A DNA stretch of 64,000 nt. Origin: Deltaproteobacteria bacterium. Lineage in GTDB: Bacteria; Desulfobacterota; Syntrophorhabdia; Syntrophorhabdales; Syntrophorhabdaceae. The first letter of the stretch is position 1, and each line of letters opens with the position of its first letter. Below, one piece after another: positions 15,188 through 63,286 of the stretch. Under the pieces are notes generated by a model. The model was not told the origin of the DNA. It was given only the letters and a program-made list of their open reading frames with translations, and searched no databases. Where the stretch lies: the NCBI GenBank assembly GCA_022711595.1, contig JAKLET010000017.1, positions 1 through 64,000 on the forward strand, given 5' to 3'. Made by a program: the position numbers and the translations under genes.

Positions 15188-15256
15188 TTAAACCGTTTCA
15201 TAAACACTCAAACACTCAAACTGTTCTTCCCATAACCAATGACCCATCACCTATTG
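15188..15256. repeat. Intergenic word repeats (classes B/E and A)
   Basis: Between the convergent tRNA-Gln and the minus-strand metallopeptidase gene. The left part is built of AACACTCAAACACTCAAAC-like units and the right part reads CCCATAACCAATGACCCATC. The same words recur in at least nine other spacers of this window. The stop codon of the next minus-strand gene lies inside the word TAGGTGATGGGTCAT on that strand. Confidence 0.7.
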
Positions 15257-16233
15257 CCTTTCTTCTCAAACACCCTCTTCATTTTCTCCACGATCTGAGG
15301 TGATTCAAGTTCGGTTATCCCGAAAAAGAGATAGGAGAAATTATCCGCGAGTATTTCCTCGGGATGGATGGTGTAATCGGTGTTCTTCCCTATCTGTTCA
15401 TAGAATCCGCCAAGCTCGTCTTCAGAATATAGCTTTGGTTTTTTGCCCTTGATCGGTGTCGGCTTGCGTCCCGGGCCATTGTCCCTGGCGACGGCGAGAA
15501 AGGCGACCTGAAGGTAGTCAAAGAAATGTTCGCTGTGAGCTTTGCTGTATTTTTCCACGCTGGAGTATAGGATCGGCACGACCCAGAGATTTTGCTTGTC
15601 CGCCTTGACGCGAATGCAGTGGCCGTTCAAGGGGGAATCGGGGTTGGTTATCTTCCTTGATCTCAACGATACGGGAAATTCGAACTGAGGACATTTTTTG
15701 AAACCGATGGTTTCGTAAAGCTCATCACGGAGCTGTGTGTCCCGGCGTGTTATGATATGGAAGAGTTCGTGAGAGATCAATTTGTACAGGGACACCACAT
15801 CACCCATTATCTGCCTGGCGGGGATAACGATGGCGTTGCCGCGGGAATAGGCAACGCCGCCTTCTTCATTGCCGGTTGTCTTCACAAGGTAGACCCTGTC
15901 AGGCAAAAGAGAGGCGAACCGTTCGAGCTTCGGTTCCATTGACGTGATGATCTGCCGCAGCCTGTCCTCTTCATCTTTTTCCCATGAAAGAACATTATTG
16001 GATATAAACTCAAGGAATTCATTTTCCGATACGTTCTTGTCCGTCCTCGTGCGGCAAGACCTGTCGAAAGGGCTTAATTGTTCAATGAACATATCCTTTG
16101 CGGTGAGGATGCCCCTGCCTTCCTCCACGTTTGCGAACACAAAGAGCATTTTACCCGCAGCGCGGGCGTCTGTGATGATGACTCCGCATATGAAAAGAAA
16201 AACCGCTATGATGATAACCAGTGTTTTTTTCAT
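15247..16233 (-). CDS. Secreted HExxH zinc metallopeptidase-like protein
   Basis: 328 residues. An N-terminal hydrophobic segment (residues 4-21) followed by ARA looks like a signal peptide, so export is likely. HELFH at residues 155-159 matches the HExxH zinc site, and HPEEILADNF at 290-299 offers a third, glutamate, ligand, as in gluzincin-type families. I do not recognise the exact family or substrate. It is the last gene of a minus-strand group with the DUF1846 gene (gap 101 bases) and glnS. Its stop falls within an intergenic repeat word. Confidence 0.7.
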   Translation of the reverse strand: MKKTLVIIIAVFLFICGVIITDARAAGKMLFVFANVEEGRGILTAKDMFIEQLSPFDRSCRTRTDKNVSENEFLEFISNNVLSWEKDEEDRLRQIITSMEPKLERFASLLPDRVYLVKTTGNEEGGVAYSRGNAIVIPARQIMGDVVSLYKLISHELFHIITRRDTQLRDELYETIGFKKCPQFEFPVSLRSRKITNPDSPLNGHCIRVKADKQNLWVVPILYSSVEKYSKAHSEHFFDYLQVAFLAVARDNGPGRKPTPIKGKKPKLYSEDELGGFYEQIGKNTDYTIHPEEILADNFSYLFFGITELESPQIVEKMKRVFEKKGNR

Positions 16234-16334
16234 GTTCCGGCTCCTAAAGTAATAAAAAAAGCATTAACCAATAAAAAGGCAATGACCGGCCAGGAAGACA
16301 AAAACCGGTGACAGCTTTTTGTTGGTCATCTATC

Positions 16335-17855
16335 TCATGTAATGAAGAGATTCTTTGTGGAAAAATTCGGGTCGCTGGTCAGGTTTACCCCGAGGCGCCT
16401 CAGGCCTGCTTCGTCTCCGGGGGTGGGTATATGCGTCATATGCACTTCGCAGTCGCGGAGATCCTTAAGCTTTTCGATGGCAAGCTTTGCGGCAGGGTTT
16501 GTCATAGTGCTGACGCTTAAAATGATGAGGGCCTCTTCGAGGTCGAGGCTTACGGACCGTTCCTTGAGTATCCTTGTTTTGAGGTCGCGAACTGATTCCG
16601 TAAGGTATTCCGGCAGGAGGGTGAGCTGGCCGGGGATTCCGGAAAGATGCTTGATCGCGTGGATGATGAGGCTTGCCGCGGCATGCATCAGGGGAGAGTT
16701 GCTGCCCGTGATGATTGTCCCGTCTTTCAGTTCGATAGAGGCACCGCAATAGATGCCCTCGTTGCCCTTGTTGGCGCTGCTGCGTGCATCTTCGGCCGCG
16801 TTGCGCGCGGGCATGACAACTTCGCGGTGCTCGGGGACAAGGTTGAAACCCTTGATAAAAAGCTCCGCTTTTTGGACCGTATCTTTTTCGGCAAAGCCCA
16901 TGGCATACTCGCAAAGGTACCGGAAGTACCTGCGGATGATCTCTTGCTTCGAGGCTTCTTTCACCACATCATCATCGGTGATCGCGAAACCGACACGGTT
17001 GACGCCCATATCAGTTGGTGACCGGTAGAACGATTCGCCGCCGGTGATCTTTTCCATTATTCTCTGCAGAACGGGGAACACTTCCACGTCCCGGTTATAG
17101 TTGACGGATATCTTCCCGTACGCCTCCATGTGGAAGGGATCGATGAGGTTGAAATCCTTGATGTCGGCGGTAGCAGCTTCATAGGCGACATTGACGGGGT
17201 GTTTTAACGGAAGGTTCCATACCGGGAATGTCTCAAATTTGGCATAACCTGAACGTATCCCGCGATGATGATCATGGTAGAGCTGGGAAAGGCAGGTGGC
17301 CAGTTTTCCGCTCCCCGGCCCCGGCCCCGTGACGATCACGAGAGGCTTGTCGGATTCGATATATTCGTTTGCTCCGTAACCTTCATCGCTGACGATGGTG
17401 TCCACATCTGTCGGGTAACCCCTGGTAAAACGATGGGTGTACACCTTGATGCCCCGCCTCTCAAGCTTGTTCTTGAAGTGAACGGCCGCGGGTTGGTTAT
17501 CGAAGCGCGTAATTATCACACCCAGGACATTTATCTCCCAGCCCCTCAGCTCGTCGATCAGCTTAAGGGCGTCCGCATCGTAGGTGATGCCGAAATCGGC
17601 TCGGATCTTCTTCCGCTCGATGTCCCCGGCGTATATGCACAGCAGGAGGTCCGCCTTGTCTTTCAGCTCGGAGAGCAGGAGCATCTTGGCGTTCGGGTCA
17701 TAACCGGGCAAGACCCTTGAGGCATGATAATCATAGAGAAGCTTTCCCCCGAATTCCAAATAAAGCTTATCGTCAAACCTTTTGACCCTTTCCAGTATCT
17801 CCTGCGTCTGTTCGTGAAGATACTTTTCGTTGTCAAAGCCTTTTTTCAGGATCAT
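16335..17855 (-). CDS. DUF1846 family protein
   Basis: 506 residues, close to the length of the DUF1846/UPF0371 family. A nucleotide-binding-like loop GPGPGSGK lies at residues 177-184. Sequence blocks such as GCDPN-like PGYDPNAK, SPTDMGVN and HMTHIPTPGDEAGLRRLG match what I recall of the family, whose structure suggests a nucleotide-binding enzyme of unknown reaction. It is 60 bases downstream of glnS on the same strand, with GGGGG before the ATG. No cellular role can be read from the sequence. Confidence 0.8.
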   Translation of the reverse strand: MILKKGFDNEKYLHEQTQEILERVKRFDDKLYLEFGGKLLYDYHASRVLPGYDPNAKMLLLSELKDKADLLLCIYAGDIERKKIRADFGITYDADALKLIDELRGWEINVLGVIITRFDNQPAAVHFKNKLERRGIKVYTHRFTRGYPTDVDTIVSDEGYGANEYIESDKPLVIVTGPGPGSGKLATCLSQLYHDHHRGIRSGYAKFETFPVWNLPLKHPVNVAYEAATADIKDFNLIDPFHMEAYGKISVNYNRDVEVFPVLQRIMEKITGGESFYRSPTDMGVNRVGFAITDDDVVKEASKQEIIRRYFRYLCEYAMGFAEKDTVQKAELFIKGFNLVPEHREVVMPARNAAEDARSSANKGNEGIYCGASIELKDGTIITGSNSPLMHAAASLIIHAIKHLSGIPGQLTLLPEYLTESVRDLKTRILKERSVSLDLEEALIILSVSTMTNPAAKLAIEKLKDLRDCEVHMTHIPTPGDEAGLRRLGVNLTSDPNFSTKNLFIT

Positions 17856-17915
17856 CCAAGCTTCCCCCTGTATTTTTTATTGTTCTGTTTTTTTCGATAC
17901 TGCCCTGCGGCGCCC

Positions 17916-19613
17916 TTATTTCCGGCCTGCTTCACCGGTCATCTTTGCCCATGAATCGCGAAGCGAAACGATCCGGTTAAAGACCGGTTTGCCGGGCGCG
18001 GTGTCCTTCATGTCAGCGCAAAAATAACCAAGCCGCTCGAACTGGTACCTGTCCTCCGGCTTTGCAGCGGCGAGGCCGGCCTCAACGTAGCAGGGATAGA
18101 CCGTCTCCAGTGAATCGGGATTGAGAAGAGACGTGAAATCATCTTCGGAACCAGCAGGGTCCGCCGTTTTGAAAAGCCGGTCATAAAGGCGCACCTGTGC
18201 GGACAGGGCGTGACGAACCGAGACCCAGTGGATGACGCCGTCCACCTTGCGGCCATCCGGCGGCGGCGCGTTCTTCGTTTCAGGATCGAAGGTGCAATGG
18301 ATCTCGGTAATCCTGCCCGTTGCCTCGTCCTTTACCATGGAGGCGAACTTGATGATGTAGCAGTTCCGCAGGCGGACCTCTCGGCCGGGACCGAGGCGTT
18401 TGTACTTTTTCGGCGGGTCTTCCATGAAATCATCGCTTTCGATATAGATCTCCCTGGAAAAAGGTACCTTTCTTGTCCCCATATCTGGTTTCTGAGGATG
18501 ATTGGCGCACTCGACCTCCTCCGTTTTGTCGTCCGGGTAATTGTCGATGACAACCCGAAGAGGTCTCAGGACGGCCATGGCGCGCGGGGCGCGCTCACCC
18601 AGGTCATCCCGGACACAATGCTCAAGGAGGGCAATATCGACAAGGTTATCTTTCTTGGCAACGCCTATCCTGGCACAAAAGTCCCTGATCGCCTCCGGCG
18701 TATATCCGCGCCGCCTCATTCCGGCGACGGTGGGCATTCGCGGATCATCCCATCCGCTTACGTGATGACCCTCGACGAGTTCGATGAGCCTGCGTTTGCT
18801 CAGCATCGTGTAGCTCAGGTTGAGACGGGCGAACTCTATCTGCTGGGGTCTGTGACCCTCGATCAGCTCATTGACGAACCAGTCATAGAGCGGACGGTTG
18901 TTCTCGAATTCAAGGGTGCAGATGGAGTGCGTGATGTTCTCGACGGAGTCGGAAAGGCAGTGGGCAAAATCGTACATGGGGTATATGATCCAATCATCTC
19001 CGGTCCGGTAGTGGGGGGAGCGCTTGATCCGGTAGATGACGGGGTCGCGCATGGTGACGTTCGGAGACGCCATGTCTATCTTTGCCCGGAGCACGTGTGC
19101 GCCATCGGCAAACTCGCCCGCCCTCATTCTGGCGAAAAGGTCGAGGTTCTCCTCGACAGAACGGTCGCGATAAGGACTGTTCTTGCCCGGCTCGGTGAGC
19201 GTTCCCCGGTACTGCCTGATCTCGTCCGCGCTCAGGCTGCAGACGTAGGCCTTCCCTGATCTGATGAGAGTCACGGCGAACTGGTAGATCTTTTCGAAAT
19301 AATCGGAGGCAAAGAAAAGGCGGTCATCCCAGTCAAACCCGAGCCAGCGGATATCATTCTGTATAGATTCGACAAACTCCAGAGATTCACCGGCCGGGTC
19401 GGTATCGTCCATGCGCAGGTTGCAGGTACCTTTGTATTGAGAGGCTATGCCGAAATTAAGGCAAACAGACTTGGCATGCCCGATATGAAGGTATCCGTTG
19501 GGTTCCGGAGGGAAGCGCGTGGCGACGCGGTTGCCATGCTTGCCGGTTTGAAGGTCGTTGTCGATGATCTCCCTGATGAAATCACTTTGCTGCGGGTCAT
19601 CCCGATGTGTCAT
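17916..19613 (-). CDS. glnS: Glutaminyl-tRNA synthetase
   Basis: Class I synthetase charging tRNA-Gln directly. 565 residues, matching the bacterial family. The ATP site HIGH is at residues 43-46 within [15 protein letters not shown], and the KMSKS-equivalent is the MLSKR block near residue 270. A beta-barrel anticodon-binding half ([18 protein letters not shown]) completes it. Its presence means this organism need not use the Glu-tRNA-Gln amidotransferase route for glutamine. It lies between two tRNA-Gln(CUG) genes at 15005 and 19833. Confidence 0.97.
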
Positions 19614-19832
19614 GGCTGGTTTTCCTTCGATTATTTTTTTGTTTTTTTAACTATAAGCTTTGTTATGGATCGACCTTTTAATACCATAAACAGCCATTTT
19701 TTTCAATGTGTTGTAGTTTTCCGGAAAGCCGGGGACAATATGGCCGCAGGGCTCGCCGGCGTCGTTAACAAAGGGTACGCAATCCGTTTTGTATATAATG
19801 GGCATTTAACCCTCCAACCCCGTGAATACCCC

Positions 19833-19906
19833 TGGGGGATCGTCTAACGGCAGGACGCAAGATTCTGGATCTTGCTATCGAGGTTCGAATCCTTGTCCCC
19901 CAGCCA
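19833..19906 (+). tRNA. tRNA-Gln (anticodon CUG), second copy
   Basis: Acceptor stem TGGGGGA/TCCCCCA with G73 and an encoded CCA, D-stem GTCT/GGAC, anticodon stem CAAGA/TCTTG with loop TTCTGGA (CUG, G37), and T-arm CGAGG/CCTTG around TTCGAAT. It differs from the copy at 15005 in most stems, so it is not a recent duplicate. A TATAAT lies at 19794-19799 with TTAACA 23 bases further upstream. The promoter is plausible but the spacing is too long to be sure. Confidence 0.95.
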
Positions 19907-19913
19907 ATCCAAA

Positions 19914-20022
19914 AAGACAGTTTCGAAAAAACCGTGAACCGCGAAACGTAAAGCGATAGGCCTTATCTTTGCACCTTACGCTTTACTGTTTCATTCACGC
20001 CTTACGGTTTGAACGGTGGAAA
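19914..20022. repeat. Intergenic word repeats (class D)
   Basis: Spacer after the second tRNA-Gln. The left half reads CGTGAACCGCGAAACGTAAAG and the right half CACCTTACGCTTTACTG, ending with TTACGGTTTGAACGG. The halves are imperfect inverted partners. The same TTACG/CGTAA words recur near 27690, 51950 and 53320. No gene is seen in it. Confidence 0.65.
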
Positions 20023-20075
20023 TGCTTTTCGGGCGTCTTGATTTTTCCCGGTCAACCGTTTTATGCTTGGTTATC

Positions 20076-20798
20076 ATGAAATTGTACATACTCGGGACAG
20101 GAACTGCGATACCCAGGATCGAACGGGGGTCTTCGGCGTACCTGGTCACAACGCCCGGGGTAAACGTGCTCATAGACGTGGGGCCGGCAGTGGTGAGGCG
20201 GCTGCTGGAAAGGGGTTACGAGGTCGATGACGTCGATGTCCTGGTTCTCACGCATTTTCATGTTGACCATACGGCGGACCTTTCGACCTTTTTCTTCGCC
20301 TGCAATTACGGAAATGTGACAAGGACAAAACCGCTTACCATAATAGGCGGCAGGGGGATCGCCGGGTTCTACCGGGGCCTTCAGGCGATCTACCCCTGGG
20401 TCAGGCCGAAACAATACGGGCTGACGGTGCGGCGCCTTGTCAATAATTCCATGAAATTCGGCGGGGTCACGATCACCGCCGTTCCTGTGAACCACAACCC
20501 GGAGAGTATTGCTGTGAGGCTCGACGGCAAAAGATCTATCACCTTTTCCGGGGACACCGGCCACTCCCCGAACCTCACCAGGCTGGCGGACAGGACGAAT
20601 GTGCTTGTTGCCGAATGCTCCTTCCCGGAGCGCAAGGCGAAGGGACACTTAAACTTTGCCGCCCTCGACAAGATAGTGCAAAAGGCCAGGCCGAAACAGG
20701 TGGTTCTCACACACCTCTACCCGGACTGGGACGACTACAGGGGTGTCCTCCACGCGCCGTACCTGCTGGGCGAGGACGGAATGGAGATAACGCTGTAA
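20076..20798 (+). CDS. MBL-fold metallo-hydrolase (RNase Z-like)
   Basis: 240 residues from the ATG at 20076, chosen because MKLYILGTGTAIPRIERGSS matches the start of the beta-lactamase-fold family. An upstream in-frame ATG at 20016 would overlap repeat sequence. The metal site THFHVDHTAD is at residues 59-68, with later ligands in NHNPE and SGDTG, and a final HLYPDW block. It resembles RNase Z and related phosphodiesterases, but lacks features that would fix its substrate. It lies 219 bases upstream of ubiD on the same strand, and no functional link is evident. Confidence 0.85.
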   Translation: MKLYILGTGTAIPRIERGSSAYLVTTPGVNVLIDVGPAVVRRLLERGYEVDDVDVLVLTHFHVDHTADLSTFFFACNYGNVTRTKPLTIIGGRGIAGFYRGLQAIYPWVRPKQYGLTVRRLVNNSMKFGGVTITAVPVNHNPESIAVRLDGKRSITFSGDTGHSPNLTRLADRTNVLVAECSFPERKAKGHLNFAALDKIVQKARPKQVVLTHLYPDWDDYRGVLHAPYLLGEDGMEITL

Positions 20799-21017
20799 GG
20801 TCAGGGTGGTTCTGTGCCCCGACCATGCCTTTCAGATAAAAGGACATATCTCACGCCCGCTTCCAAGAATATTCGAAAAGATTAAAACCATGAAATGGCT
20901 ATGAAAATATGCTATTGTATTTTTTCCTTCACAAAATATTTTTGTCCTTTCGTTTGCCTCATTTATGGCCCATAGAACAGCAAGGACGCAAAGATCAACG
21001 ACCTGGAGGACCTGTTA
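20799..21017. other. Spacer before ubiD with one class F word
   Basis: 219 bases without a gene. 20840-20870 holds a reverse-strand copy of the GCGGGCGTGAGA ... GTCCTTTT word found also near 51570, 51910 and 53270. A strongly AT-rich stretch at 20885-20955 probably contains the promoter of the ubiD operon, but I could not pick a convincing -35/-10 pair. GGAGG precedes the ubiD start. Confidence 0.5.
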
Positions 21018-25679: not shown

Positions 25680-25694
25680 TAAGGTGCGTGGTGG

Positions 25695-27615: not shown

Positions 27616-27628
27616 GACATGGAAACAA

Positions 27629-27800
27629 AAACAGTTTCAACTGTTTCAACGGCTTTAAGCCGTTCCAGCAGTTCAAGAGGCCGTAAAGCGTGAACAGAGA
27701 CCGTGAATGAGGCCGCAAATTGTAAAAACCTTATGCAAGTTTTTTTGATTTTCCCTGTTGAAACGGTTTAAACGGCTCAAACGGTTCGAGCCGTTTCCTT
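27629..27800. repeat. Intergenic word repeats (classes B and D) with two hairpins
   Basis: Convergent spacer between the Kdo-kinase gene and lpxL. 27648-27664 is a hairpin AACGGCT-TTA-AGCCGTT. 27770-27796 is a hairpin AAACGGCTC / GAGCCGTTT with a nine-base loop, reaching 20 bases into the 3' end of lpxL. Between them lie class D words (CGTAAAGCGTGAACAGAG). The hairpins may act as terminators for both genes, although neither has a clean T-run. Confidence 0.65.
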
Positions 27801-28685: not shown

Positions 28686-28691
28686 ATCGAC

Positions 28692-28886: not shown

Positions 28887-28890
28887 TTCA

Positions 28891-32087: not shown

Positions 32088-32188
32088 GTCTTTCTTTATA
32101 TTCACGTCGCTACCCGCAACCTGAGAACCTGCCAGCGAGGTCAAAGTATATAACAAGTTGAGATAAAATTCAAAAAAGGAAGAATGAG

Positions 32189-32316
32189 GGACAGGTTTCT
32201 ATGGTTTCTTTGGTTTGTCAGGTTTCTATGGTTTCTTCAGTTCCCTTGGTTAAAAAGACATAAATTTTCTCCAGCCAGATAAACCAGATAAACCGTATTC
32301 TATGACCCATCAACCG
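32189..32316. repeat. Intergenic word repeats (class C)
   Basis: Spacer between hisC (stop at 32318) and cmk. The left side is tandem GGTTTCTATGGTTTCTTTGG and the right side CCAGATAAACCAGATAAACC, roughly inverted partners separated by about 40 bases. A class A word (ATGACCCATCAACCG) touches the hisC stop. The same class C words recur near 56180 and 56890. Confidence 0.7.
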
Positions 32317-32317
32317 T

Positions 32318-35862: not shown

Positions 35863-35872
35863 AAAAACCCTT

Positions 35873-36012
35873 TGGTCATAGGTTATGGGTCATAGGTTAT
35901 GGGAAAGGCGAAAACTAAAGACAAAGACCATGTCAAGCCCGGCATGAAAATTTCAACTGTCCTTGCGCTTGACACGGTCCTTGCCCGGAACCTATAACCT
36001 ATAACCTCTCTT
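35873..36012. repeat. Intergenic word repeats (class A) as inverted arms
   Basis: Spacer between miaB and the FBP aldolase/phosphatase gene. 35873-35903 is GGTCATAGGTTATGGG twice over, and 35989-36008 is its complement, CCTATAACCTATAACC. Between them a class F-like word (AAAGACCATGTCAAGCCCG) is present. The arms could pair across an ~85-base loop. Confidence 0.75.
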
Positions 36013-36014
36013 CT

Positions 36015-44805: not shown

Positions 44806-44808
44806 CTC

Positions 44809-51336: not shown

Positions 51337-52175
51337 TGGGTCATGGGAAATATGAAGGCAGCTTGAGCCGCTTGAATGCTTGAACAGCTTGAACGTGTGA
51401 GTGAATGAATAAAAACGTTTTTACCATGACCCATAACCCACTGCTGTCCAAAATAATTCATTTCCCAAAGTGTTCTCCTTATAAAACAACGCCTCAGAAC
51501 AGGCAGATCCCCCGCTGCGGAACGAGGTTGTCTGTTTGACGTTAAAAACCAAAGAAAAAACCAAAAGACCATGTCTCACGCCCGTTCCCCGCATAAAGCG
51601 GGGTCACTGGAGGCAAAGGAGCCTGGGGAGAAAACTTTAAAACATGCGGCCGGATCTTAACATCTGGTCATAGGTGATAGGTTATGGGTTATGGGAAAAC
51701 CGTCCTTCCTATGACCTATCACCACGAACCCATTACCTGTCTTTTTCTGTCCGCAGTCCGATCGCCCTGTAACGGGCGATAATAAAACGATCGTGGACAA
51801 CACTCCTACCGTATATCCGTCAGGTATTATGTGCTGGCAAAGGTTTCTTTACCATCCCGCACACATCTTCCTCCTTATGCTCCCCTGCCTCCAGAGAGGA
51901 GCGAAACGACGAACGGGCGTGAGATGAGTCTTTTGGTTTTTTTCTTACGCTTTACGCCTGACGCTTCACGGTCTTGGTTGAGCGGGCATGAGATAAAGAC
52001 AGTTCCAGAGTTCCAGTGTTTGAATGTTCCAGGGGAAAGAAAAAAAGCCACTCTTTTTTAAACCCTTTCACAAACCCTAAAACATTCAAACTCAAACCGT
52101 TTTTTTATTTGACCGTAAAAGCCTCCCGAAAAACAATTTAAAAAGTAATATATCCATGGATCGAATTTTATTATT
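51337..52175. repeat. Long repeat-filled spacer
   Basis: About 840 bases without a gene that I can support. Successive words: class A at 51334-51352, class B (GCTTGAATGCTTGAACAGC) at 51361-51398, inverted class A at 51425-51440, class F at 51555-51590, class A at 51663-51697 with its inverse at 51709-51742, a hairpin ATCGCCC/GGGCGAT at 51761-51780, class F inverse at 51902-51940, class D at 51944-51975 and class E with its inverse at 51999-52105. Most words occur as inverted pairs around a centre. Confidence 0.75.
51543..51950. repeat. MITE-like element with ~75-bp imperfect inverted ends (class F)
   Basis: The left end (51543-51622) and the right end (51875-51950) are imperfect inverted copies. 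Shared blocks are GAAAAAAACCAAAAGAC, TCTCACGCCCGTTC and TGGAGGCA...GGAG, in the same order and spacing. Between them lie class A words and a short perfect hairpin, with no transposase frame. A single related arm sits at 53240-53290. No target-site duplication was identified. Confidence 0.55.
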
Positions 52176-52184
52176 GGGGGGGGG
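52176..52184 (+). repeat. Nine-G tract serving as ribosome-binding site
   Basis: A run of nine G residues ends three bases before the ATG at 52188, where the Shine-Dalgarno sequence should be. Homopolymer runs of this length can change by slippage, which would move the spacing of the site. Confidence 0.6.
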
Positions 52185-52187
52185 TTC

Positions 52188-52511: not shown

Positions 52512-52526
52512 AAAAAGGAGGGTCAT

Positions 52527-53102: not shown

Positions 53103-53462
53103 AAACAGTTCCAGGGTTCCGGAGTTTGAAAGTTTGTAAAGCGATACAGAAAAACTAATCATTTTCTTTGAAATGTTTCACAGACATTCAAATTCTGGAA
53201 CTTTTTTGATATTATCCCGCTTTCAAACTCTGTTGTCTCCAGTGAGGAATGAAATGACGAACGCGCGTGAAACAAGGTCTTTTTGGCATTTTTTTACTCC
53301 TTACCCCTTACTCCTTACGGTCTCACGCGCTTTACGCTTTACGGTCCATTGATTGCTTGAACGGAAGAAATAATAGAAACCTGAGAAGACGGCTGAAACA
53401 GCTGAAACGATTGGGACGGTTGCGGCTGCTCTCTTTTTGCTTTACGCCCATCGTTTTACGGC
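53103..53462. repeat. Repeat-filled spacer before the histidine kinase (classes E, F, D, B)
   Basis: About 360 bases without a gene. AGTTCCAGGGTTCCGGAG at 53105-53122 pairs with the inverse ATTCAAATTCTGGAAC at 53187-53202, followed by six T, so this part could end transcription of the preceding pair. A class F arm is at 53240-53290, inverted class D words (CTCACGCGCTTTACGC) at 53322-53345, and class B-like AAACAGCTGAAACG at 53396-53409. Confidence 0.7.
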
Positions 53463-53468
53463 TATAAT
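53441..53468 (+). promoter_or_regulatory. Promoter of the hybrid histidine kinase, possibly leaderless
   Basis: TTTACG (53441-53446), 16-base spacer and perfect TATAAT (53463-53468). The -10 box ends only six bases before the ATG at 53475 and no Shine-Dalgarno sequence is present, so transcription would start at or next to the start codon. The -35 is part of a class D repeat word. Confidence 0.5.
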
Positions 53469-53474
53469 TATCAA

Positions 53475-56123: not shown

Positions 56124-56236
56124 TAAAGACGGCTTGAACCGCTTGAATGCTTGAACGGCTTGAATGGGAAAAACCAGAAGAAACGAACCAGACAAATCGA
56201 ACAAACCAGATAAACAAAAGAAACCGTCGTTTCTTT
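56124..56236. repeat. Intergenic word repeats (classes B and C)
   Basis: Convergent spacer. 56131-56165 is tandem GGCTTGAACCGCTTGAATGC, and 56170-56218 is AACCAGATAAAC-type units ending in an inverted GAAACCGTCGTTTC hairpin. The array begins three bases after the kinase stop. Confidence 0.75.
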
Positions 56237-56791
56237 TTACCCGCTGCCTTCCTTGAGGAAAAGGCACATCAGGAAGAGGACGATACTCCCGATGAAGAGT
56301 ATGCCGGAAAATACGATGCCAAGAATGTATCCCACGGCCTGGGCCAGATTTGGTTTCATGAATACGATCCTGTGTTCCCCGTCCTTCGGTTTTGGCGGCC
56401 CGAAATTTATGAGTTTAATGGTGTAGCGGCCCGGGTATGGGAGTTCGAAGCTTTTCATTTCCATACGTATCTTCATAAAACTTGAAGACCTGGAATGGAA
56501 CAAAGTGACATGTCCCTTTACGGGAGATCCATCGCTTGCGATGAGCTCGTATTTGACCCCGCCGAACCTGGTCGTGAGAAGGGGGCCCTCGATGCAGAGG
56601 ACCACATTGCCTGCCTCTGTGAATTCAACGTCTTGCTGTTCCACGGCCGGGATGCTCATGATAGTTTTTTCAGCCTTCATGCGGATAACACTTTTGATAA
56701 AGAAGACAAGCATCACGACTGCGATAACCAGGACAGGTATGGATATCCATACCCCGTTGCGGTAGATGAAGCCGAAGAAGTTCATGCCCAC
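56237..56791 (-). CDS. Membrane protein of unknown function
   Basis: 184 residues. Hydrophobic helices near residues 14-33 and 152-178 flank a region of about 115 residues with beta-type patterning (VLCIEGPLLTTRFGG ... YPGRYTIKLINFG). It is probably an inner-membrane protein with an exported middle domain. I do not recognise the family. A second ATG two codons downstream is an alternative start. Confidence 0.6.
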   Translation of the reverse strand: MGMNFFGFIYRNGVWISIPVLVIAVVMLVFFIKSVIRMKAEKTIMSIPAVEQQDVEFTEAGNVVLCIEGPLLTTRFGGVKYELIASDGSPVKGHVTLFHSRSSSFMKIRMEMKSFELPYPGRYTIKLINFGPPKPKDGEHRIVFMKPNLAQAVGYILGIVFSGILFIGSIVLFLMCLFLKEGSG

Positions 56792-57097
56792 CCCAGATGG
56801 CTTTTTGTGTATATCTCAGGGTATCAGGGGATGAAGGGTGATGTCAACAGCAAGACAGGTGATGGGTCATAGAATAAGTTTATCTGGTTTCTTTTGTTTC
56901 CCCAGTTTCTTTGGCTGGCAAGACCGGACAAACCAGACAAACCGTAAAAACGGTATTATTTTTGAGGAGTTGGGCAAAGTTTGCGATGTTGCCTTGAGTC
57001 TGCGGCGATATCGTGGTATGCTTGCTTTCGAGTGTTCACAGCACAAAAGAATACTTAATTCACACGGGAACGGATTTCTCGAAAAGGAGAGCGGGTC
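56792..57097. repeat. Divergent spacer with class A and C words
   Basis: 306 bases without a gene. GATGGGTCATAG at 56861-56872 (class A), then TTATCTGGTTTC-type units at 56880-56915 and the inverse GACAAACCAGACAAACC at 56927-56943 (class C). AAAAGGAG precedes the arginine decarboxylase start. Confidence 0.7.
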
Positions 57098-57640
57098 ATG
57101 TATGTCGCAAGCAAGATGATACTCACCAAAGGGGTCGGGCAGAACAAGGAAAAGCTGGTGAGTTTCGAACTTGCGTTGCGCAACGCGAAGATAGCCCCTT
57201 TTAATATCGTAAAGGTGTCGAGCATTTTCCCTCCCCGCTGTGAGATAGTGTCCGTCAACAAAGGGCTTAAGGAACTGACCCCGGGACAGATAGTCCATGC
57301 GGTCCTTGCCGAGGCCTCGACCGATGAACACCACCGCCTGATAGCCGCCTCCGTCGGCGTTGCCATTCCCAAGGACCGGAACCGTTTCGGATATCTTTCT
57401 GAATACCATAGTCACGGAGAAGACGAAAAAGCTGCCGGTGACTATTCGGAGGACATCGCCGCCCAGATGCTGGCGACGATCCTCGGGCTCGAGTTCGACG
57501 TCAACGAGAGTTATAACAAACGCCTTGACCAGTGGAAGCTGAGCGACGAGATAGTCCACACGCGCAATATCACGCAGACGAGCGTCGGCAAGAAAGGCGT
57601 CTGGACAACCGTCGTGGCGGCAGCCATACTGGTTCCCTGA
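57098..57640 (+). CDS. Pyruvoyl-dependent arginine decarboxylase
   Basis: Makes agmatine from arginine, starting polyamine synthesis or acid resistance. 180 residues, family length. The self-cleavage site is S41-S42 in KVSSIFPPRC, where S42 becomes the pyruvoyl group. PGQIVHAVLAEASTDEHHRLIAASVGVA and YHSHGE follow. It stands alone; no other polyamine gene is adjacent. Confidence 0.92.
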   Translation: MYVASKMILTKGVGQNKEKLVSFELALRNAKIAPFNIVKVSSIFPPRCEIVSVNKGLKELTPGQIVHAVLAEASTDEHHRLIAASVGVAIPKDRNRFGYLSEYHSHGEDEKAAGDYSEDIAAQMLATILGLEFDVNESYNKRLDQWKLSDEIVHTRNITQTSVGKKGVWTTVVAAAILVP

Positions 57641-57841
57641 AAGAACAGCTTTAACCGGGGACACCTCGTTTGCAGTCCCTGAACATCCTGAAAAATAAAG
57701 AAATACACGATATTCCGTTTTCCTTCCTCAATTTCAGTAAAATGACGGTGATAAATCAGGGATTCCCCTATTGTTGAAGATGTCCTCCAGGTCTACACTG
57801 TATTTGATATAACAGCCCACTGAAACGGAGGTGCTTGACCC

Positions 57842-58012
57842 ATGGGATTCACGCATATATTAATTATTTCTTTCTTTTGTGTCCTGCCGCTTGCCGTCGG
57901 GGCAATCCTGGCTGCAAAGTTTTTGGCGAGGCACAGGGCGTCCCGGGAGCCCCTGATAGCTGCGGGCCCAATGGAAAATCCTTTCCTGCTGGATGACTGG
58001 GACCTCAGGTAG
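57842..58012 (+). CDS. Small membrane protein, 56 residues
   Basis: Short frame found by reading the spacer. It begins MGFTHILIISFFCVLPLAV, has one hydrophobic helix at residues 5-26, then a basic stretch (RHRASR) and an acidic end (DDWDLR). GGAGGT lies nine bases before the ATG, which is the main support. The positive-inside rule suggests the C-terminus is cytosolic. No homologue is recognised. Confidence 0.55.
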   Translation: MGFTHILIISFFCVLPLAVGAILAAKFLARHRASREPLIAAGPMENPFLLDDWDLR

Positions 58013-58203
58013 ATCATATCCTTCAATGTGATATATTGGTCTGCCGCTTTCTATTGCACAGCTTTTAACCTTTGCCGTTCAGGCAGAGAGCGCTTGCACA
58101 TTGGGGCCTCGAGGGAGAGGCAGTTTGTACCCCCGGGGCTATGCTGCTGTGATCCGGTTTTTATTTATGTTGAATTACGGGCCGGATGGCCGGAACGGCA
58201 GTG

Positions 58204-58527
58204 TCAATCTTCCCGATAATACAGAGGACAAAGCTCGGAAGAACCGGGAATATAATTGCGGCACACCATGGGCCGTGTTTCGTAGATCTCGCAGGAAAAC
58301 GAGGAACCCTCCCAGCTGAGATAATAACAGCTCGTCACTTTCGCCCCCGACTTGTTGATGATACGGTCACCCGCCCACATCACCTCGTTACTTCTCAACC
58401 GGGCAATGATATCATGGCGCCCTTCTTTTTCCCATCTATCAATATCTTCGGGAGACACGTAGGCGGCCATGTCCACGTGACAGCAGGTGCCGCATCGGCG
58501 GCAGGAAATGTCCCTATTCTTTTCCAC
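58204..58527 (-). CDS. YkgJ family cysteine-cluster protein
   Basis: 107 residues. The N-terminal CRRCGTCC cluster and later C...CEIYETRPMVCRNY with a final CP match the zinc/iron-chelating YkgJ (CxxCxxCC) family. The role is unknown in most members; some are metal-dependent oxidoreductase partners. It is convergent with the small membrane-protein gene. Confidence 0.88.
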   Translation of the reverse strand: MEKNRDISCRRCGTCCHVDMAAYVSPEDIDRWEKEGRHDIIARLRSNEVMWAGDRIINKSGAKVTSCYYLSWEGSSFSCEIYETRPMVCRNYIPGSSELCPLYYRED

Positions 58528-58557
58528 TGTTCCATGCCATTTCGTGCTTCCGGCGCA

Positions 58558-58995
58558 TTACTGCTGTTCCGGAAGGATCGCCGCCGGCATGCCGGGGAAA
58601 CGCTTTTTGAGGCGTTTGAAATAGCCCGGGCTTCCCAGGCATTCATCATTGTCTTCCTCGGCGCAGGCGATCTCGGCCACCTTCCATTTCGGGCCGCTTT
58701 TGCGCAGCAGGGCTGAAACGTCCTCGTACTGGTTCGCGCCGTCAGCGGACTTCGGGAGTGTTTCGATCCACGCCCAGCCGCCCTGGACCTTCAGGTACTT
58801 GACGACAAAGACGGCGTTGATGTGATGCAGCTTTTCCATCTCGGCGCGCAGGGCGTCGAGTATGAGCTTTCTCTCGGCCGATCCCGGCGGCGGCGTGAGC
58901 ACCTGTCCCCGGGGCTCTCCTGCCGCGGCCACTGATTGCATGGCTGGCAGAAAGAGGATGACCGCGAAGAGGACTAACAGGGCTTTTTTTACCAT
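58558..58995 (-). CDS. Secreted protein of unknown function
   Basis: 145 residues from the ATG at 58995, preceded by GGGAG at seven bases. The upstream ATG at 59013 lacks such a site. A signal peptide (residues 4-24, ending VAAAGEP) is clear. The mature part has KLILDALRAEMEKLH and WAWIETLPKSADG, reminiscent of small periplasmic proteins found with stress genes. Two cysteines in CAEEDNDEC may form a disulfide. It is 18 bases after the pentapeptide gene. Confidence 0.65.
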   Translation of the reverse strand: MVKKALLVLFAVILFLPAMQSVAAAGEPRGQVLTPPPGSAERKLILDALRAEMEKLHHINAVFVVKYLKVQGGWAWIETLPKSADGANQYEDVSALLRKSGPKWKVAEIACAEEDNDECLGSPGYFKRLKKRFPGMPAAILPEQQ

Positions 58996-59013
58996 ACATT
59001 TTCTCCCTTCCAT

Positions 59014-59469
59014 CTATTTTTTCGTTCCGTCGATCCACGTGGCACCGTTGAGGCAGGTTCCGTTGAGGTCGGCGCCGGCAAGGTTTGCATCGAAAAGATT
59101 GGCGCCTGTAAGATCGCTGCCCGCAAGATCACACCCGGTAAGATTGGCACCGATGAGATTGGCATCGTAAAGATTGGCATCGTGGAGGTTGGCATGTGAA
59201 AGGTTGGCTCGTGACAGGTTGGTGCTGAAGAGGTTGGCACGCGACAGGTCTGCGCGGTACAGGTTGGCACTGAAGAGGTCAGTCCGGGAGAGATCAGCCC
59301 GGGAGAGATCAGCCCGGGAGAGATCAGCCAGCGAGAGGTTCGCGCGGGATAGATCGGCGCCGTAAAGGTTTTTTCCGGAAAGGTCGGCGCATAAGCCGTC
59401 ATTCTCGTCATTGAGCCACTTCTCATGTTTGGACAGGATGCTCCCCAGCTCTTCTTTGGATATTTCCAT
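59014..59469 (-). CDS. Pentapeptide-repeat protein
   Basis: 151 residues from the ATG at 59469, which has AGGAG four bases upstream. A 30-residue start (ISKEELGSILSKHEKWL) is followed by about 22 tandem A(D/N)LxX pentapeptides, which form a right-handed four-sided beta-helix. It ends with the common NGATWIDGTKK cap. Some relatives mimic DNA and protect gyrase, but most have unknown function. Part of the repeat is a recent DNA-level expansion. Confidence 0.9.
   Translation of the reverse strand: MEISKEELGSILSKHEKWLNDENDGLCADLSGKNLYGADLSRANLSLADLSRADLSRADLSRTDLFSANLYRADLSRANLFSTNLSRANLSHANLHDANLYDANLIGANLTGCDLAGSDLTGANLFDANLAGADLNGTCLNGATWIDGTKK
59284..59328. repeat. Three exact 15-bp tandem repeats inside the pentapeptide gene
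   Basis: The unit CCGGGAGAGATCAGC occurs three times without change at 59284-59298, 59299-59313 and 59314-59328. Each encodes one ADLSR pentapeptide on the minus strand. Confidence 0.9.
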
Positions 59470-59544
59470 AATACTCCTGTAATGATGTGTATAAAACAAT
59501 ATTACTAACAGACGGGTAATTTATCAAATAGATTCAAAAAAACA

Positions 59545-60273
59545 TTATTCGGCATCTTCAAGAAACACTGTTGCCCTGGTGCCTTTCCCCTTCTTCGTTG
59601 AGGTCGTAACCTTATGTTCACACATTTCATCATACCGGTAGGTTTCGGTGATTTTGGAGCCTGTCAGATAGTTGAAGCTCTCTGCCTTCCCCCCGACACA
59701 GCCATCCACATTTTCAATATCTTTTCCGATCAAGATAAACCGCCGTTTTCCGGAGTCATAACGAAAACGCCACGTCTTGACGGAAAACTCTCGCGAACCG
59801 CTCCACTGCCTGACGATAATGACCCCCTTTTTGATGCCGATGCCAACCATTTCCTTGGCCCCGCCGTATCCCCTGTCTTGAAGGAGACCGCTGTTTGTTC
59901 CCGCCAGGGTGAATTCGCCTTTATCCTGGCCCAGAAGAACTATCAGGGCGCGGGGTTCATCATCCGCTGCTTCCCTCGAAGCGGTGCCCGGTTTGCCCCG
60001 AAAAAGTATGGCGGCCACATCGGGTATTCCATCACCGTTCAGGTCGCCGCTTGCCTGATTATCGACCGCCCAACCCCCGGGCAGAAAATGGGTCAATGAC
60101 TTTCCGCGGGCGGGGAGACTCTTCACGGGCAATCCTTCCGTTCGGGGCTCGACCGTCCGGCTGGCGCCATCCCTCCCGGAGTCTTTCTTTTGTCCCGATT
60201 GATCAGCAAAAAGCATATGTGCGCAAAGAAAGCCAAAGAGCACTGCAATGATGACCATGACAGGTTTCTTCAT
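59545..60273 (-). CDS. Secreted FG-GAP-like protein
   Basis: 242 residues. A signal peptide (residues 5-22, ending MLFADQ) is followed by a low-complexity linker and then DLNGDGIPDVAAIL, the calcium-binding FG-GAP/VCBS signature, followed by a beta-rich domain to the end. Two cysteines near the C-terminus may pair. Role unknown, probably envelope or extracellular. Confidence 0.72.
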   Translation of the reverse strand: MKKPVMVIIAVLFGFLCAHMLFADQSGQKKDSGRDGASRTVEPRTEGLPVKSLPARGKSLTHFLPGGWAVDNQASGDLNGDGIPDVAAILFRGKPGTASREAADDEPRALIVLLGQDKGEFTLAGTNSGLLQDRGYGGAKEMVGIGIKKGVIIVRQWSGSREFSVKTWRFRYDSGKRRFILIGKDIENVDGCVGGKAESFNYLTGSKITETYRYDEMCEHKVTTSTKKGKGTRATVFLEDAE

Positions 60274-60694
60274 GAAAGAGCCTCTCTCTTCTTTTGGTTT
60301 GCCATGATCGCCAATTCCCGGCGATCATACAGCGGCACGCGTTGCTTCAGTCGGTGTACCTGTCAGAGATGTCCGGCTTTGACTTGTCTTATACTCTAAG
60401 AGATATTCCTGTTCAAATCAAGTAAACTGCTTTGCTGTTAAAGCCCTCGATGACAGCGTGAAAATAAGCTGTTACCGGCAGGTTGTCAAGTTTATGAAAT
60501 TCAGATCGACGCTTTTTTAAAAAAATATCTGGTATTGGCTTAATTTATTCCAGTGATCCTTCGATAAATTAGATATCACCAACCGGCCGGCAACAGGGAA
60601 CGGTACAAATGGTGAGGAAAATCAGAGCGACGAATGATCATGGCGGTGCCTCCGGCGGGACCACCGGCGGAGCGAACTTTAAGAGAGGAGAGAA
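60274..60694. other. Spacer between the FG-GAP and flagellin genes
   Basis: 421 bases without a supported gene. It is AT-rich at 60400-60570 and then GC-rich. CCGGCGG occurs twice at 60651-60668, just upstream of the flagellin ribosome-binding site (AGAGGAGAG). I looked for sigma-28 (TAAA-N15-GCCGATAA) and sigma-54 (TGGCAC-N5-TTGC) sites and found no convincing match. None of the word classes seen in other spacers is evident. Confidence 0.5.
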
Positions 60695-62293
60695 ATGGCT
60701 TCCGGCCACATATCGTTGACATCGGGAATGAGGTCTACACTCCTGTCCCTCCAGGGATCGGTCAAACTCCTGGAGCGAACGCAGCAGCGCCTGGCCACGG
60801 GCAAGAAGGTCAACTCGGCGGTAGATAACCCGACATCGTTCTTCACCGCCCTGTCGTTGTCCAGCCGCGCGTCAACGATCGCAGGCACTAAGGACGCCAT
60901 AGGCGAAGCGATCCAGACGATCAAGGCCGCGGACAAGGGCATCGCGGCCATAAGCACGCTGATACAGGCGGCTCGCGGTGTCGCGGAGTCTGCCCTGGGG
61001 GCCAGCACGACAGGCGCGGCAACGGCAACCGGTTCGATAAGCCTGAGCGGGATCGTGGGCAGCAAAGGTGCCGTTCAGCAAAGCTACGATGCTGCGACAC
61101 TTACGTTGACAGGGCTGCAGGACAATAACCCCGGCGGAGACGGTGATTTCATAAACTTGAAAATCGACGGGTTAGGGGGTACCTATCCGGTCGCAGCGGA
61201 GTCGGGCGTCCAGGGTTATTACAGTTTCTTTCTGGATCCCGCGGACATGGACGCGACAGCATTTAATATGGCCAATAAAATCAATTCGATCGATTGGGAT
61301 TACTGGAAGATAAACGTTAATCCTAACATGGACGTCTATTACAGGGCAGAATATTTAGGGTCGAACCAGCTGAGGATTACCAAATTCGATTATGCTACCT
61401 CCAACCAGCTCGATGTGGAGGCCGGAGACATCGTGGAGAATCCCGCCAATGCCGGTGACTTCGACCCGCAGATCGCTTCTTATGCACTTCCACTGCCTGC
61501 ACCGGACACCATCGAAATAGGCGGGGTTACCTTCACGGCGATCTACTCCGGAGTGCCGGCTGCCGATGAGTTCATAGCGACGACCGGCGACAACGCCGCC
61601 ACGATGCAGTCGCTGGCAGCGGCCATCGAGGCCCACGATTGGTCGGGCGGGGCGTATACCTTCAACGCTTCAGTTTCCGGCGGCACCCTGAACATCGACA
61701 AGGTCGACAACACGACCGGCCTGGCGGCAGACGTCACCGCAGGTGACTTCGACGCTTCCGGTATCATCTGCGGCGGTTCCGGCTCCATGACGCTCGTCCA
61801 GAACTCGAGCGAGCTCTCCGCGTATCAGGACGAGTACAACGAATTACGGGCCCAGTTGACGACGCTTGCCCGGGACTCCTTCTACAAGGGAACAAATCTT
61901 CTGAGCGGCAGCAACATGACCGTGCGCTTCGAGAACAGCACTCTGACGGTGAACGGGTTCAGCGCTTTGGCTTCCGGCCTGGGCATAACGGAAGCGGCCT
62001 GGACCACTGGCGGCAGCATAGACGGTGATCTCGCGTTGCTGGAAGACGCTCTCGACAGACTGAGGGAGGAATCCTCGAACATGTCCAACAACCTGAGCAT
62101 CATCTCCGCACGCTTCGATTTTTCCACGAGCATGATAAACGTTCTGACTGAAGGTTCGGACAAGCTGACGCTGGCGGATACCAGCGAGGAAGGCGCGAAC
62201 ATGCTCATGCTTCAGACACGCCAATCCCTCAGCATGAACGCCCTGAGCCTGGCCGCGCAGGCCGCGCAGTCGGTATTGCAATTGTTCTCGTAG
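60695..62293 (+). CDS. Flagellin
   Basis: 532 residues. The N-terminal D0/D1 part (SLQGSVKLLERTQQRLATGKKVN, then DNPTSFFTALSLSSRAS) and the C-terminal part (NNLSIISARFDFSTSMINVL ... LMLQTRQSLSMNALSLAAQ) are conserved and form the filament core. The middle (about 140-390) is variable and surface-exposed. The ends look more like alphaproteobacterial flagellins than the common INTNVASLNAQ type. No other flagellar gene is in the window. Confidence 0.9.
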   Translation: MASGHISLTSGMRSTLLSLQGSVKLLERTQQRLATGKKVNSAVDNPTSFFTALSLSSRASTIAGTKDAIGEAIQTIKAADKGIAAISTLIQAARGVAESALGASTTGAATATGSISLSGIVGSKGAVQQSYDAATLTLTGLQDNNPGGDGDFINLKIDGLGGTYPVAAESGVQGYYSFFLDPADMDATAFNMANKINSIDWDYWKINVNPNMDVYYRAEYLGSNQLRITKFDYATSNQLDVEAGDIVENPANAGDFDPQIASYALPLPAPDTIEIGGVTFTAIYSGVPAADEFIATTGDNAATMQSLAAAIEAHDWSGGAYTFNASVSGGTLNIDKVDNTTGLAADVTAGDFDASGIICGGSGSMTLVQNSSELSAYQDEYNELRAQLTTLARDSFYKGTNLLSGSNMTVRFENSTLTVNGFSALASGLGITEAAWTTGGSIDGDLALLEDALDRLREESSNMSNNLSIISARFDFSTSMINVLTEGSDKLTLADTSEEGANMLMLQTRQSLSMNALSLAAQAAQSVLQLFS

Positions 62294-62634
62294 CGAGGTC
62301 TTTGCAGCTCTTCGGCCTTCTCTTAAATGCTGTTTAATTATTAAAATGTTGTTTTGCAAGACTTGACGCTGCAATTCCACAAGCCTATCACCTCCTTAAG
62401 GGGGGGGGACATCCTGCAGCCCTCCTGTTTCCGTGTCGACGATGGAGCCTCCCGCGCAGAACTACAAGAAATGACGAGAAGGGTGTTCGTGAAGTTTATT
62501 TATTTATTTTCTTGGGAACGTTCCTTTTGGCCCCCTGAAGGAAAAAACTTTGATCCGAGACACGAATACCTGCTGTTAAATAATTGGACACAGTATTTTG
62601 GAAATGTTGTATAATTCCGAAAAGAGGTGGATCT
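62294..62634. other. Spacer between flagellin and hicB
   Basis: 341 bases. A nine-G run lies at 62400-62408. No hairpin terminator was found after flagellin. The rest shows no recognised gene or repeat apart from the hicB promoter at the end. Confidence 0.5.
62585..62615 (+). promoter_or_regulatory. Promoter of hicB-hicA
   Basis: TGGACA at 62585-62590, a 19-base spacer and a perfect TATAAT at 62610-62615, 19 bases before the hicB ATG. The spacing is slightly long. Confidence 0.55.
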
Positions 62635-62838
62635 ATGAGGATCACAGTTGTATTGGAACCGAGCGAAGAGGGTGGCTACACAGCCATAGCCCCTTCCCTG
62701 CCCGGGTGCATCAGCGAAGGGAACAACAAAGAAGAGGCCTTAAAGAACATAAAAGAGGCCATAGAGCTATATCTGGAATCGGTTGAGGACGATAGGGTTT
62801 TTACTGAGAACTCCGAGATCGTCGAACTGGCCGTATGA
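62635..62838 (+). CDS. hicB: HicB-family antitoxin
   Basis: 67 residues from the ATG at 62635, after GAGGTGG. ITVVLEPSEEGGYTAIAPSLPGCISEGNNKEEALKNI shows the partial RNase H-like fold of HicB, with the GCxSEGxxxEEAL block. It has no C-terminal DNA-binding domain, so it is the short form. It overlaps hicA (ATGA). Confidence 0.92.
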   Translation: MRITVVLEPSEEGGYTAIAPSLPGCISEGNNKEEALKNIKEAIELYLESVEDDRVFTENSEIVELAV

Positions 62839-63062
62839 CCGTTATCCCAAGTCTTCCTTACGATCATGTCATCAAGGCGCTTCAGAGAGACGGATGGATT
62901 GTAGTAAGACAGAAGGGCAGTCACATCCGGCTTCAGAAACATACCTCCACAGAAACCCTTAAGCTTACCATTCCCGCCCACCGTCCGATAAAAAGGACGA
63001 CCCTATCCCACATACTGAAACAGGCAAGGCTGACCGTTGAAGAGTTCAATAAGCTGGTGTAA
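62835..63062 (+). CDS. hicA: HicA-family mRNA interferase toxin
   Basis: 75 residues with a dsRBD-like fold. The catalytic histidine is in GSHIRLQKH after GWIVVRQK, and IPAHRPIKRTTLSHILKQA is the usual end. It cuts mRNA unless bound by HicB. The order here is antitoxin first. Confidence 0.93.
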   Translation: MTVIPSLPYDHVIKALQRDGWIVVRQKGSHIRLQKHTSTETLKLTIPAHRPIKRTTLSHILKQARLTVEEFNKLV

Positions 63063-63286
63063 CCGGGTTCTTCGGTTTATAAAGATTTCCTTCTTTAAAT
63101 CGTTTCACAAACTCAAACGGTTTCTATTGCACCGCAGATGGACGCAGATAACTTCGGATGGATATATTTGCGCGAGTCCATGGGGGCACCTTACCGATAT
63201 GCAACAGGAAAACTGTTGGTTTAGGGATAGAGAGGTTGGGTCAGCTGTTGCAGGTTAAGGTTGGGAGAATATCGTTCTGTCCTTTT
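63063..63286. repeat. Spacer with word repeats and one long direct repeat copy
   Basis: 63095-63125 has CACAAACTCAAACGG-type words, and ACCGCAGATGGACGCAGA follows at 63130-63147. 63191-63222 is the first copy of a 31-bp direct repeat whose second copy is at 63962-63993. Confidence 0.6.
63191..63222 (+). repeat. Direct repeat, copy 1
   Basis: Contains GATATGCAACAGGAAAACTG. Copy 2 at 63962-63993 matches at 28 of 31 positions in the same direction. The copies bracket the membrane-protein gene at 63287-63757. Confidence 0.75.

Follow-up and report, generated by a model that had tools for sequence, protein, structure and literature searches.

We analyzed a window of 64,000 bases (contig 9, bases 1–64000; JAKLET010000017.1, assembly GCA_022711595.1) from a Deltaproteobacteria bacterium of the family Syntrophorhabdaceae, the genome of which (G000) comprises 3.55 Mb in 58 contigs, and examined the short repeated words that occupy many of its intergenic spacers. 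An earlier note on this window had described five such words, A to E, in spacers at the ends of transcription units. The results revealed that the word arrays are a real feature at gene ends and are under sequence constraint. The ribosomal-protein operon (1–14985) carries no words, and word-bearing spacers begin from 15 kb onward. A scan of the window against Rfam 15 identified no RNA family above the gathering score except three tRNAs. The word-bearing features are as follows; a strand is stated where one was assigned.

15131..15246: convergent spacer after tRNA-Gln, B2/E-type on its 5' side AACAGTTTCAG and, on its 3' side, with the words AAACACTCAAACACTCAAACTG and then A' CCCATAACCAATGACCCATCACC
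19917..20015: word D pair after tRNA-Gln, CGTAAAGCG … CACCTTACGCTTTACTG … CGCCTTACGG
27630..27799: convergent spacer with B2 arms AACAGTTTCAACTGTTTCAACGG … GTTGAAACGGTTTAAACGGC enclosing an A/T-rich inner hairpin
32192..32297: word C arms GGTTTCTATGGTTTCTTTGGTTT … CCAGATAAACCAGATAAACC, downstream of a minus-strand aminotransferase gene
35874..35903, plus strand: word A arm GGTCATAGGTTATGGGTCATAGGTTATGGG, the outer arm of the FBPase gene-end hairpin
35926..35979, minus strand: inner hairpin after FBPase, GACCGTGTCAAGCGC … GGCTTGACATGGTC and then TTTGTCTTT, conserved in relatives with different arms
35989..36006, minus strand: second word A arm GGTTATAGGTTATAGGTT, immediately past the FBPase stop codon
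51332..51438: A arms around one-sided B words GCTTGAGCCGCTTGAATGCTTGAACAGCTTGAAC; the right arm adjoins a transposon-like end
51666..51726: A arms GGTCATAGGTGATAGGTTATGGGTTATGGG … CCTATGACCTATCACC
51938..51972: word D array TTACGCTTTACGCCTGACGCTTCACGG
52001..52100: word E arms AGTTCCAGAGTTCCAGTGTTTGAATGTTCCAG … AACATTCAAACTCAAACCG, terminating in TTTTTTT
53104..53206: word E arms AGTTCCAGGGTTCCGGAGTTTGAAAGTTTG … CAGACATTCAAATTCTGGAAC
53294..53343: TTACTCC heptads, then word D CGCTTTACGCTTTACGG
56131..56215: mixed element, B arm GGCTTGAACCGCTTGAATGCTTGAACGGCTTGAATGGG opposite C' words AACCAGACAAATCGAACAAACCAGATAAAC, beginning a few nucleotides past a stop codon
56856..56945: A word GGTGATGGGTCATAG with C arms GTTTATCTGGTTTCTTTTGTTT … GGACAAACCAGACAAACC

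Words A to E were present where they had been described. A strict word scan matched nine spacers of the window, and one more (53103–53206, word E) was recovered as an inverted pair. The last site to the right, at about 63085–63122, appears as a short remnant. Sampled statistics were drawn from 464 kb of G000 and from about 1.26 Mb and 0.72 Mb of two other genomes, G010 and G006, respectively. Genes were called with a simple hexamer-type caller written for this analysis, and individual gene boundaries may be off. Word A, GGTNATR, expressed as the 16-base pattern GGTNATRGGTNATRGG, has 345 exact matches throughout G000, compared with 1 for the reversed control. In the 464 kb of G000, the word-A pattern GGTNATRGGTNATR occurred 41 times in spacers and never in genes (reversed control, 0). 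The commonest intergenic 10-mers were AACCGTTTCA (15 times), ACCCATAACC (13), AACCAGACAA (11), and AACCGCTTGA (11), for which shuffled sequence led us to expect 0–0.5. The words are far more frequent than chance and are not equally dense in genes, on both of which the earlier description depended. Its periodicity of 7–9 nt was likewise evident as sharp peaks at periods 7 and 9: among 247 spacers of the 464-kb sample, arrays scoring at least 11 numbered 10 at period 7, 2 at period 8, 21 at period 9, and 9 at period 14, compared with roughly 0–0.4 in length-scaled coding DNA and first-order Markov shuffles. Nearly all words of the window's genus consist of GTT plus 4–6 bases, so that words A to E share one grammar here.

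The spacers do contain the words, as had been claimed, but the words are mostly arms of inverted pairs and not free-standing arrays. They point inward, as (GTT…)n – centre – (…AAC)n or, in the case of word A, as (GGT…)n facing (…ACC)n. Close word pairs were inward in 54 cases and outward in 1 (nine word patterns, which overlap somewhat, in three species), and spacers with words on both strands carried the same word in 87 cases and different words in 6. Defining an element as inverted arms scoring at least 13 with one periodic arm, we detected 106 elements, compared with 1 in matched shuffles, and 171 once more sequence was added. Elements in three genomes were enriched in convergent spacers (49/131) relative to codirectional (84/607) and divergent ones (25/191). 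The outer arm began a median of 4 nt past the stop codon across all elements. In 95 codirectional spacers, the median distance of the hairpin was 6 nt to the stop codon but 79 nt to the next start, and in 89 of them the stop was the closer of the two (p = 3e-15); in convergent spacers, the element covered a median of 88% of the spacer, and placement there is hence uninformative. Besides the transcription-unit ends proposed earlier, the same-strand spacers 32088–32317 and 35863–36014 of the window also bear words, and "after stop codons" is the better description. Word orientation relative to transcription was balanced (81:73), which is expected if the sites are double-stranded and suits double-stranded recognition.

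Many of these dyads resemble terminators. A terminator-like stem base, TAA-AGACGG … CCGTCT-TTA (AAAGAC.G … C.GTCTTT), is common; an AAGAC-like base occurred at 14% of element 3' ends compared with 1% of 5' ends, and a U-rich 8-mer followed 55% of elements compared with 25% of random spacer positions. Relative to dinucleotide shuffles, the median folding z was −6.4 on the strand transcribed from the upstream gene and −5.1 on the other strand. The elements thus display the stable hairpin after a stop codon by which intrinsic terminators are recognized, and the earlier option of terminators or RNA structures is partly supported by stop-codon adjacency, stem base, U-tract excess, and strong folding. 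Terminators a few bases past the stop codon have been used as a mark of runaway transcription (PMC7858274). Judging from the short stop-to-stem distance, the genus may be of this kind.

These features raise the alternative of plain RNA structure, in which the elements would be oversized bidirectional intrinsic terminators or 3'-end stabilisers with stems of slip-prone repeats, and selection would act on pairing only. The U-tracts, the stem base, the folding, and a stop-to-stem distance of a few nucleotides, as in organisms with runaway transcription (PMC7858274), all agree with it, as do the joint change of word in both arms and the matching free bases of B and G arms described below. The predominance of G·U over A·C on the transcribed strand, which would indicate RNA-strand-specific selection, was however marginal (97:73, p = 0.04) and not significant in a per-element sign test. 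Back-up stop codons within the words were not enriched (1.43 vs 1.45 frames).

The pattern of constraint within the words bears on the same alternative. When a middle word flanked by word A on both sides was left free, positions 1, 2, 3, 5, and 6 were 92–100% fixed, and position 4 was unconstrained (A.18, C.26, G.28, T.28; 0.02 bits). In aligned orthologous A words (21 words only), 0 of 105 fixed sites differed, compared with 6 of the 42 that fall on positions 4 and 7, and the substitution background outside the words was 6.5% of sites (0.065 per site); by our own arithmetic, the chance that all six changes fall at positions 4 and 7 at random is about 5e-4. The best-rank test of own versus other-locus arms was confounded by arm selection, and tests of the free positions were used instead. 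The free base of word A agreed between the two arms of one locus at 0.42, compared with a null of 0.45 ± 0.05 from arms of different loci, and the arms of word C likewise had no free-base match. The lack of a match between word-A arms indicates that the word itself, and not only pairing, is constrained; for word A, selection acts on the word rather than pair by pair. Moreover, deviations from the consensus were mostly uncompensated in the opposite arm. Selection on pairing only leaves these findings unexplained, together with the same word being fixed at dozens of loci with one base free, and we consider plain RNA structure a rather unlikely explanation. The protein-binding arrays suggested in the earlier note gained indirect support from the fixed motif with its free base, the purifying selection, and the absence of an arm-to-arm match in word A.

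The free bases also bear on a mutational origin, in which replication slippage would make the tandem words and intrastrand template switching would copy one arm to the other at pre-existing terminator hairpins. Adjacent words shared the free base above chance (0.39 vs 0.25), units are gained or lost (a 14-nt loss in G005), and B and G arms match. Nevertheless, most neighbours still differ at the free base even though the hairpins turn over faster than coding sequence, A arms are not mutual copies, and the same words recur at dozens of loci with their fixed positions conserved, which makes this origin quite improbable.

We compared the FBPase gene end in ten genomes of the genus, and nearly all have a closely related inner hairpin. 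The arms around it were GGTTATA in G000 and GGTAATA in G011; five relatives had AAGTTTTAGGTGTT, G003 had GTTTCAG, and G008 had ACGTTCT. Within a genome, the two arms are complementary. The hand-read arms formed a duplex of −30.5 kcal/mol within their own genome and of −14.5 kcal/mol across species; an automatic version with 20 orthologous pairs from three genomes, not all of which are independent loci, yielded −54.2 and −24.6 kcal/mol, respectively (Wilcoxon p = 2e-4). Orthologous gene ends of different species often carry wholly different words, the two arms having changed together, and at gene ends other than FBPase the entire hairpin differs. The hairpins diverge faster than coding sequence. 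Between G010 and G006, which have 91% coding identity, convergent spacers with elements matched over a median of 26% of their length compared with 85% for divergent spacers without elements (small numbers, 8 and 17 spacers). Words C, D, E, and B2 were essentially confined to G000, words F and G were abundant only in G010 and G006, and word A was present in all three. A related 16-mer, with one mismatch allowed, occurred in 10 of the 11 other genus members and sporadically elsewhere.

Families of dispersed, lineage-specific words might also arise from otherwise neutral palindromic repeats inserted past stop codons, such as repetitive extragenic palindromic (REP) sequences, bacterial interspersed mosaic elements (BIMEs), or miniature inverted-repeat transposable elements (MITEs). 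In agreement with this possibility, G006 has larger palindromic families, and neighbour mutual information for word B in that genome (1.13 vs 0.91) points to phrase sharing between loci. Word order provided some evidence of phrase copying for B and G, borderline evidence for A in G006 (48/500 shuffles), and none for A in G000 and G010. The centres, however, are locus-specific, the words are under purifying selection, and the FBPase inner hairpin is conserved between differing outer arms, which one insertion cannot produce. Y1 transposase was absent from the array-bearing genomes G002, G060, and G073; G000 itself had two Y1 matches. We therefore regard dispersed palindromes as unlikely. REP/BIME elements with a RAYT were rejected because Y1 is missing from those three genomes, and a MITE moved as one unit with target duplication was rejected because of the locus-specific centres and the conserved FBPase centre with different arms. 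Our results concur with the earlier opinion that these are neither REP, enterobacterial repetitive intergenic consensus (ERIC), nor MITE sequences, nor clustered regularly interspaced short palindromic repeats (CRISPR). The dyads share with REP/BIME a palindromic form and a gene-end location, often between convergent genes, but they have a vocabulary of 7–9-nt words, no common 35-nt consensus, and no fixed partner transposase. DNA uptake sequences in Neisseria are dispersed species-specific words that form inverted pairs at gene ends and terminators. Unlike the present dyads, they consist of a single fixed word that is neither tandem nor one of several families.

The inward orientation on both sides, the same word in both arms, the uncorrelated free bases, and the fixed unit length might further be expected of a telomerase- or retroelement-like polymerase with a short degenerate template, which would write words by extending both 3' ends of a break inward. 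The earlier note had raised template copying and a reverse transcriptase. This proposal was not supported: RVT_1 was absent from G000, G001, G002, G005, G006, G010, G011, G020, G073, G139, and G197, and hence from the genome of the window and most array-bearing relatives, and a reverse transcriptase was rejected as the writer. The conserved FBPase inner hairpin between different arms and the word positions held by selection between species also argue against a templated polymerase, which we consider highly improbable. Because RVT_1 and Y1 are each absent from array-bearing genomes, neither a reverse transcriptase nor a Y1 transposase is required.

G-quadruplex elements have been proposed for heptamers of Xanthomonas and Nostoc, and the heptad period and stop-codon bias observed here resemble those of GGGNATC (PMC4692102). 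A G3-type motif was nonetheless present in an arm of only 9 of 171 elements, and words B, D, E, F, and G have no G-tracts. G-quadruplexes are thus refuted as a general explanation for these dyads, and we find them scarcely credible.

Several other repeats were also observed. At 15005–15130, a tRNA-Gln precedes a perfect hairpin of 30 bp, in which part of the 3' end of the tRNA is used again (TATCTCCCAGCCAAATTAAAAAGGCTGACC). At 51438–51530, a word-A arm directly contains an end of transposon or MITE type (CACTGCTGTCCAAAATAATTCAT…CTCCTTATAAA). The same was observed in G010 (L229, spacer at 2052), where an insertion of several hundred base pairs, flanked on either side by GGTTATGGG, interrupts an arm that is whole in G006. 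The stretch 51553–51931 forms a large imperfect palindrome, AAAAGACCATGTCTCACGCCCGTTC … GAACGGGCGTGAGATGAGTCTTTTGG, and a related palindromic family of several hundred base pairs, TCTCACGCCCG…CGCAGAG, occurs at several gene ends of G006. Another dispersed palindrome family in G010 (L125 9644, L133 8597, L149 11582; AATGACCAATGACCAAATTCCAAT…) has arms closely alike among loci. In G000 (L088, 10291–10526 and 3497–3702), a perfect 29–32-bp inverted repeat, GGTCAGGTCTTGTATTTGATCATTT, is not word-like and probably represents mobile-element ends. A 15-base tandem repeat (AGGTTGGCACGGGAC-type) at 59140–59355 overlaps predicted reading frames and looks like a pentapeptide-type coding repeat, and CCGCAGATGGACGCAGAT at 63128–63148 is a 10-base word of the kind GAACGCAGAT, which we take to be one present in many other genomes.

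Starting from the observed position, dyad form, word constraint, and joint change of arms between species, we propose that the elements may be gene-end dyads of sequence-specific sites on or around terminator-like hairpins, the vocabulary of which turns over between lineages; we assign this reading a probability of about 0.4. Two inward arrays of a 7–9-nt word lie directly past the stop codon. In most cases they enclose a hairpin peculiar to the locus, and the stem base is frequently of the terminator type. The fixed bases would be read by a putative sequence-specific nucleic-acid-binding factor, with the free base as a spacer and several copies per side. We infer from the sequences that each word is a recognition motif for such a factor and, likewise, that the dyad has a role in termination: loaded or folded, and together with the intrinsic-terminator hairpin inside it, it would halt or insulate transcription arriving at the gene end from either direction. 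With words that are short and in tandem, the dyad would tolerate unit gain or loss on one side, and each lineage would have its own vocabulary if factors and sites co-evolve and loci are resupplied from the current vocabulary.

Several observations weigh against this proposal. Strict patterns revealed the word as one-sided, or mixed words, in 100 of 187 word-bearing spacers; some hairpins lie in divergent spacers; and about 45% of elements have no clear U-tract. The arms of B in G006 and of G in G010 agree at free bases above chance, a sign of pairing or copying in these two cases. A genome with several words would also require several putative factors.

For breadth, eighty loci from many phyla were taken blindly by homology to one protein of the window. 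Their spacers contained 30 arrays of period 7 and 8 of period 8, compared with expectations of about 0.6 and 0.4, and 0–3 arrays at periods 4–6, 9–11, and 13. Arms of inverted heptads or octads, some 0–12 nt away from a stop codon, were identified in Acidobacteriota (L060, L047), Gemmatimonadota (L063), Planctomycetota (L008), Lentisphaerae (L050), and Desulfobacterales (L073). Of 198 genomes from the phylum of the window, 58 contained a further heptad, GTTCNAN, often in dozens of copies, and the GTT grammar was not general outside the window's genus. Viral contigs contained words, mostly one-armed and partly within called genes, and were uninformative since proviral and host DNA are mixed. 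These findings suggest that several phyla share a class of gene-end signal not yet characterised, with an architecture that is kept while the vocabulary changes by species. It is doubtful, though conceivable, that this signal is widespread in the fuller sense of inward dyads whose 7–9-nt words differ by lineage and are recognized by putative sequence-specific factors that diversify rapidly, with a genome-wide vocabulary turnover comparable to that of co-evolving site–factor systems.

The earlier statement that the repeats match nothing known was too strong. The closest published case is that of Rehm et al. (2015), who described GGGNATC heptamers in Xanthomonas with a strong stop-codon bias and 70–75 inverted convergent pairs, proposed a G-quadruplex, and reported heptameric repeats to be over-represented in many bacteria without detailed study (PMC4692102). 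Both GGGNATC and Nostoc GGGGAYT (PMC4692102) are intergenic heptads with fixed and free positions, and the architecture is common to the Xanthomonas case and ours: tandem 7-nt units in spacers that are rare in genes, near-stop placement, inverted convergent pairs, and, as with our dyads, under-representation between divergent genes (PMC4692102). The differences are that period 9 is common here too, that G-rich quadruplex-forming sequence is largely missing (9/171), and that one G-rich word per genome is replaced by several words, mostly without G-tracts, including 8- and 9-mers. In addition, unlike in the Xanthomonas and Nostoc description, the word here changes between species at the same gene end. 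The short tandemly repeated repetitive (STRR) heptanucleotides of heterocystous cyanobacteria (the Calothrix repeats in PMC4692102) are similar as short tandem heptamers with several families per genome; no account of inverted gene-end dyads was found for them. The TAACTGA heptamers of Beggiatoaceae (MacGregor 2015; PMC4679880) are also intergenic direct repeats and patchy across lineages, but they lie mostly just upstream of start codons, with one inverted case only, whereas our elements follow the stop closely, at a median of 6 nt, and are separated from the next start by a median of 79 nt. Intrinsic terminators with a short stop-to-stem distance (Johnson et al. 2020, as related in PMC7858274) similarly have a hairpin a few nucleotides past the stop and a frequent U-tract; the present dyads differ in stems of tens of base pairs that consist of word repeats with a conserved word sequence.

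Literature searches with the exact words yielded one unrelated hit and no publication about these repeats, and a search of the open-access literature found none on multi-word vocabularies or word swapping. To our knowledge, the excess of heptamer repeats in bacterial spacers has been noted for decades without explanation. What this case adds is the fixed architecture of an inward dyad at the stop codon, the constraint with one free base, and the natural swapping of the whole vocabulary at orthologous gene ends. With the G-quadruplex and reverse-transcriptase readings removed for this group, the question of spacer heptamers becomes testable. Should a binding factor exist, several phyla would possess a gene-end or insulation factor of a new kind.

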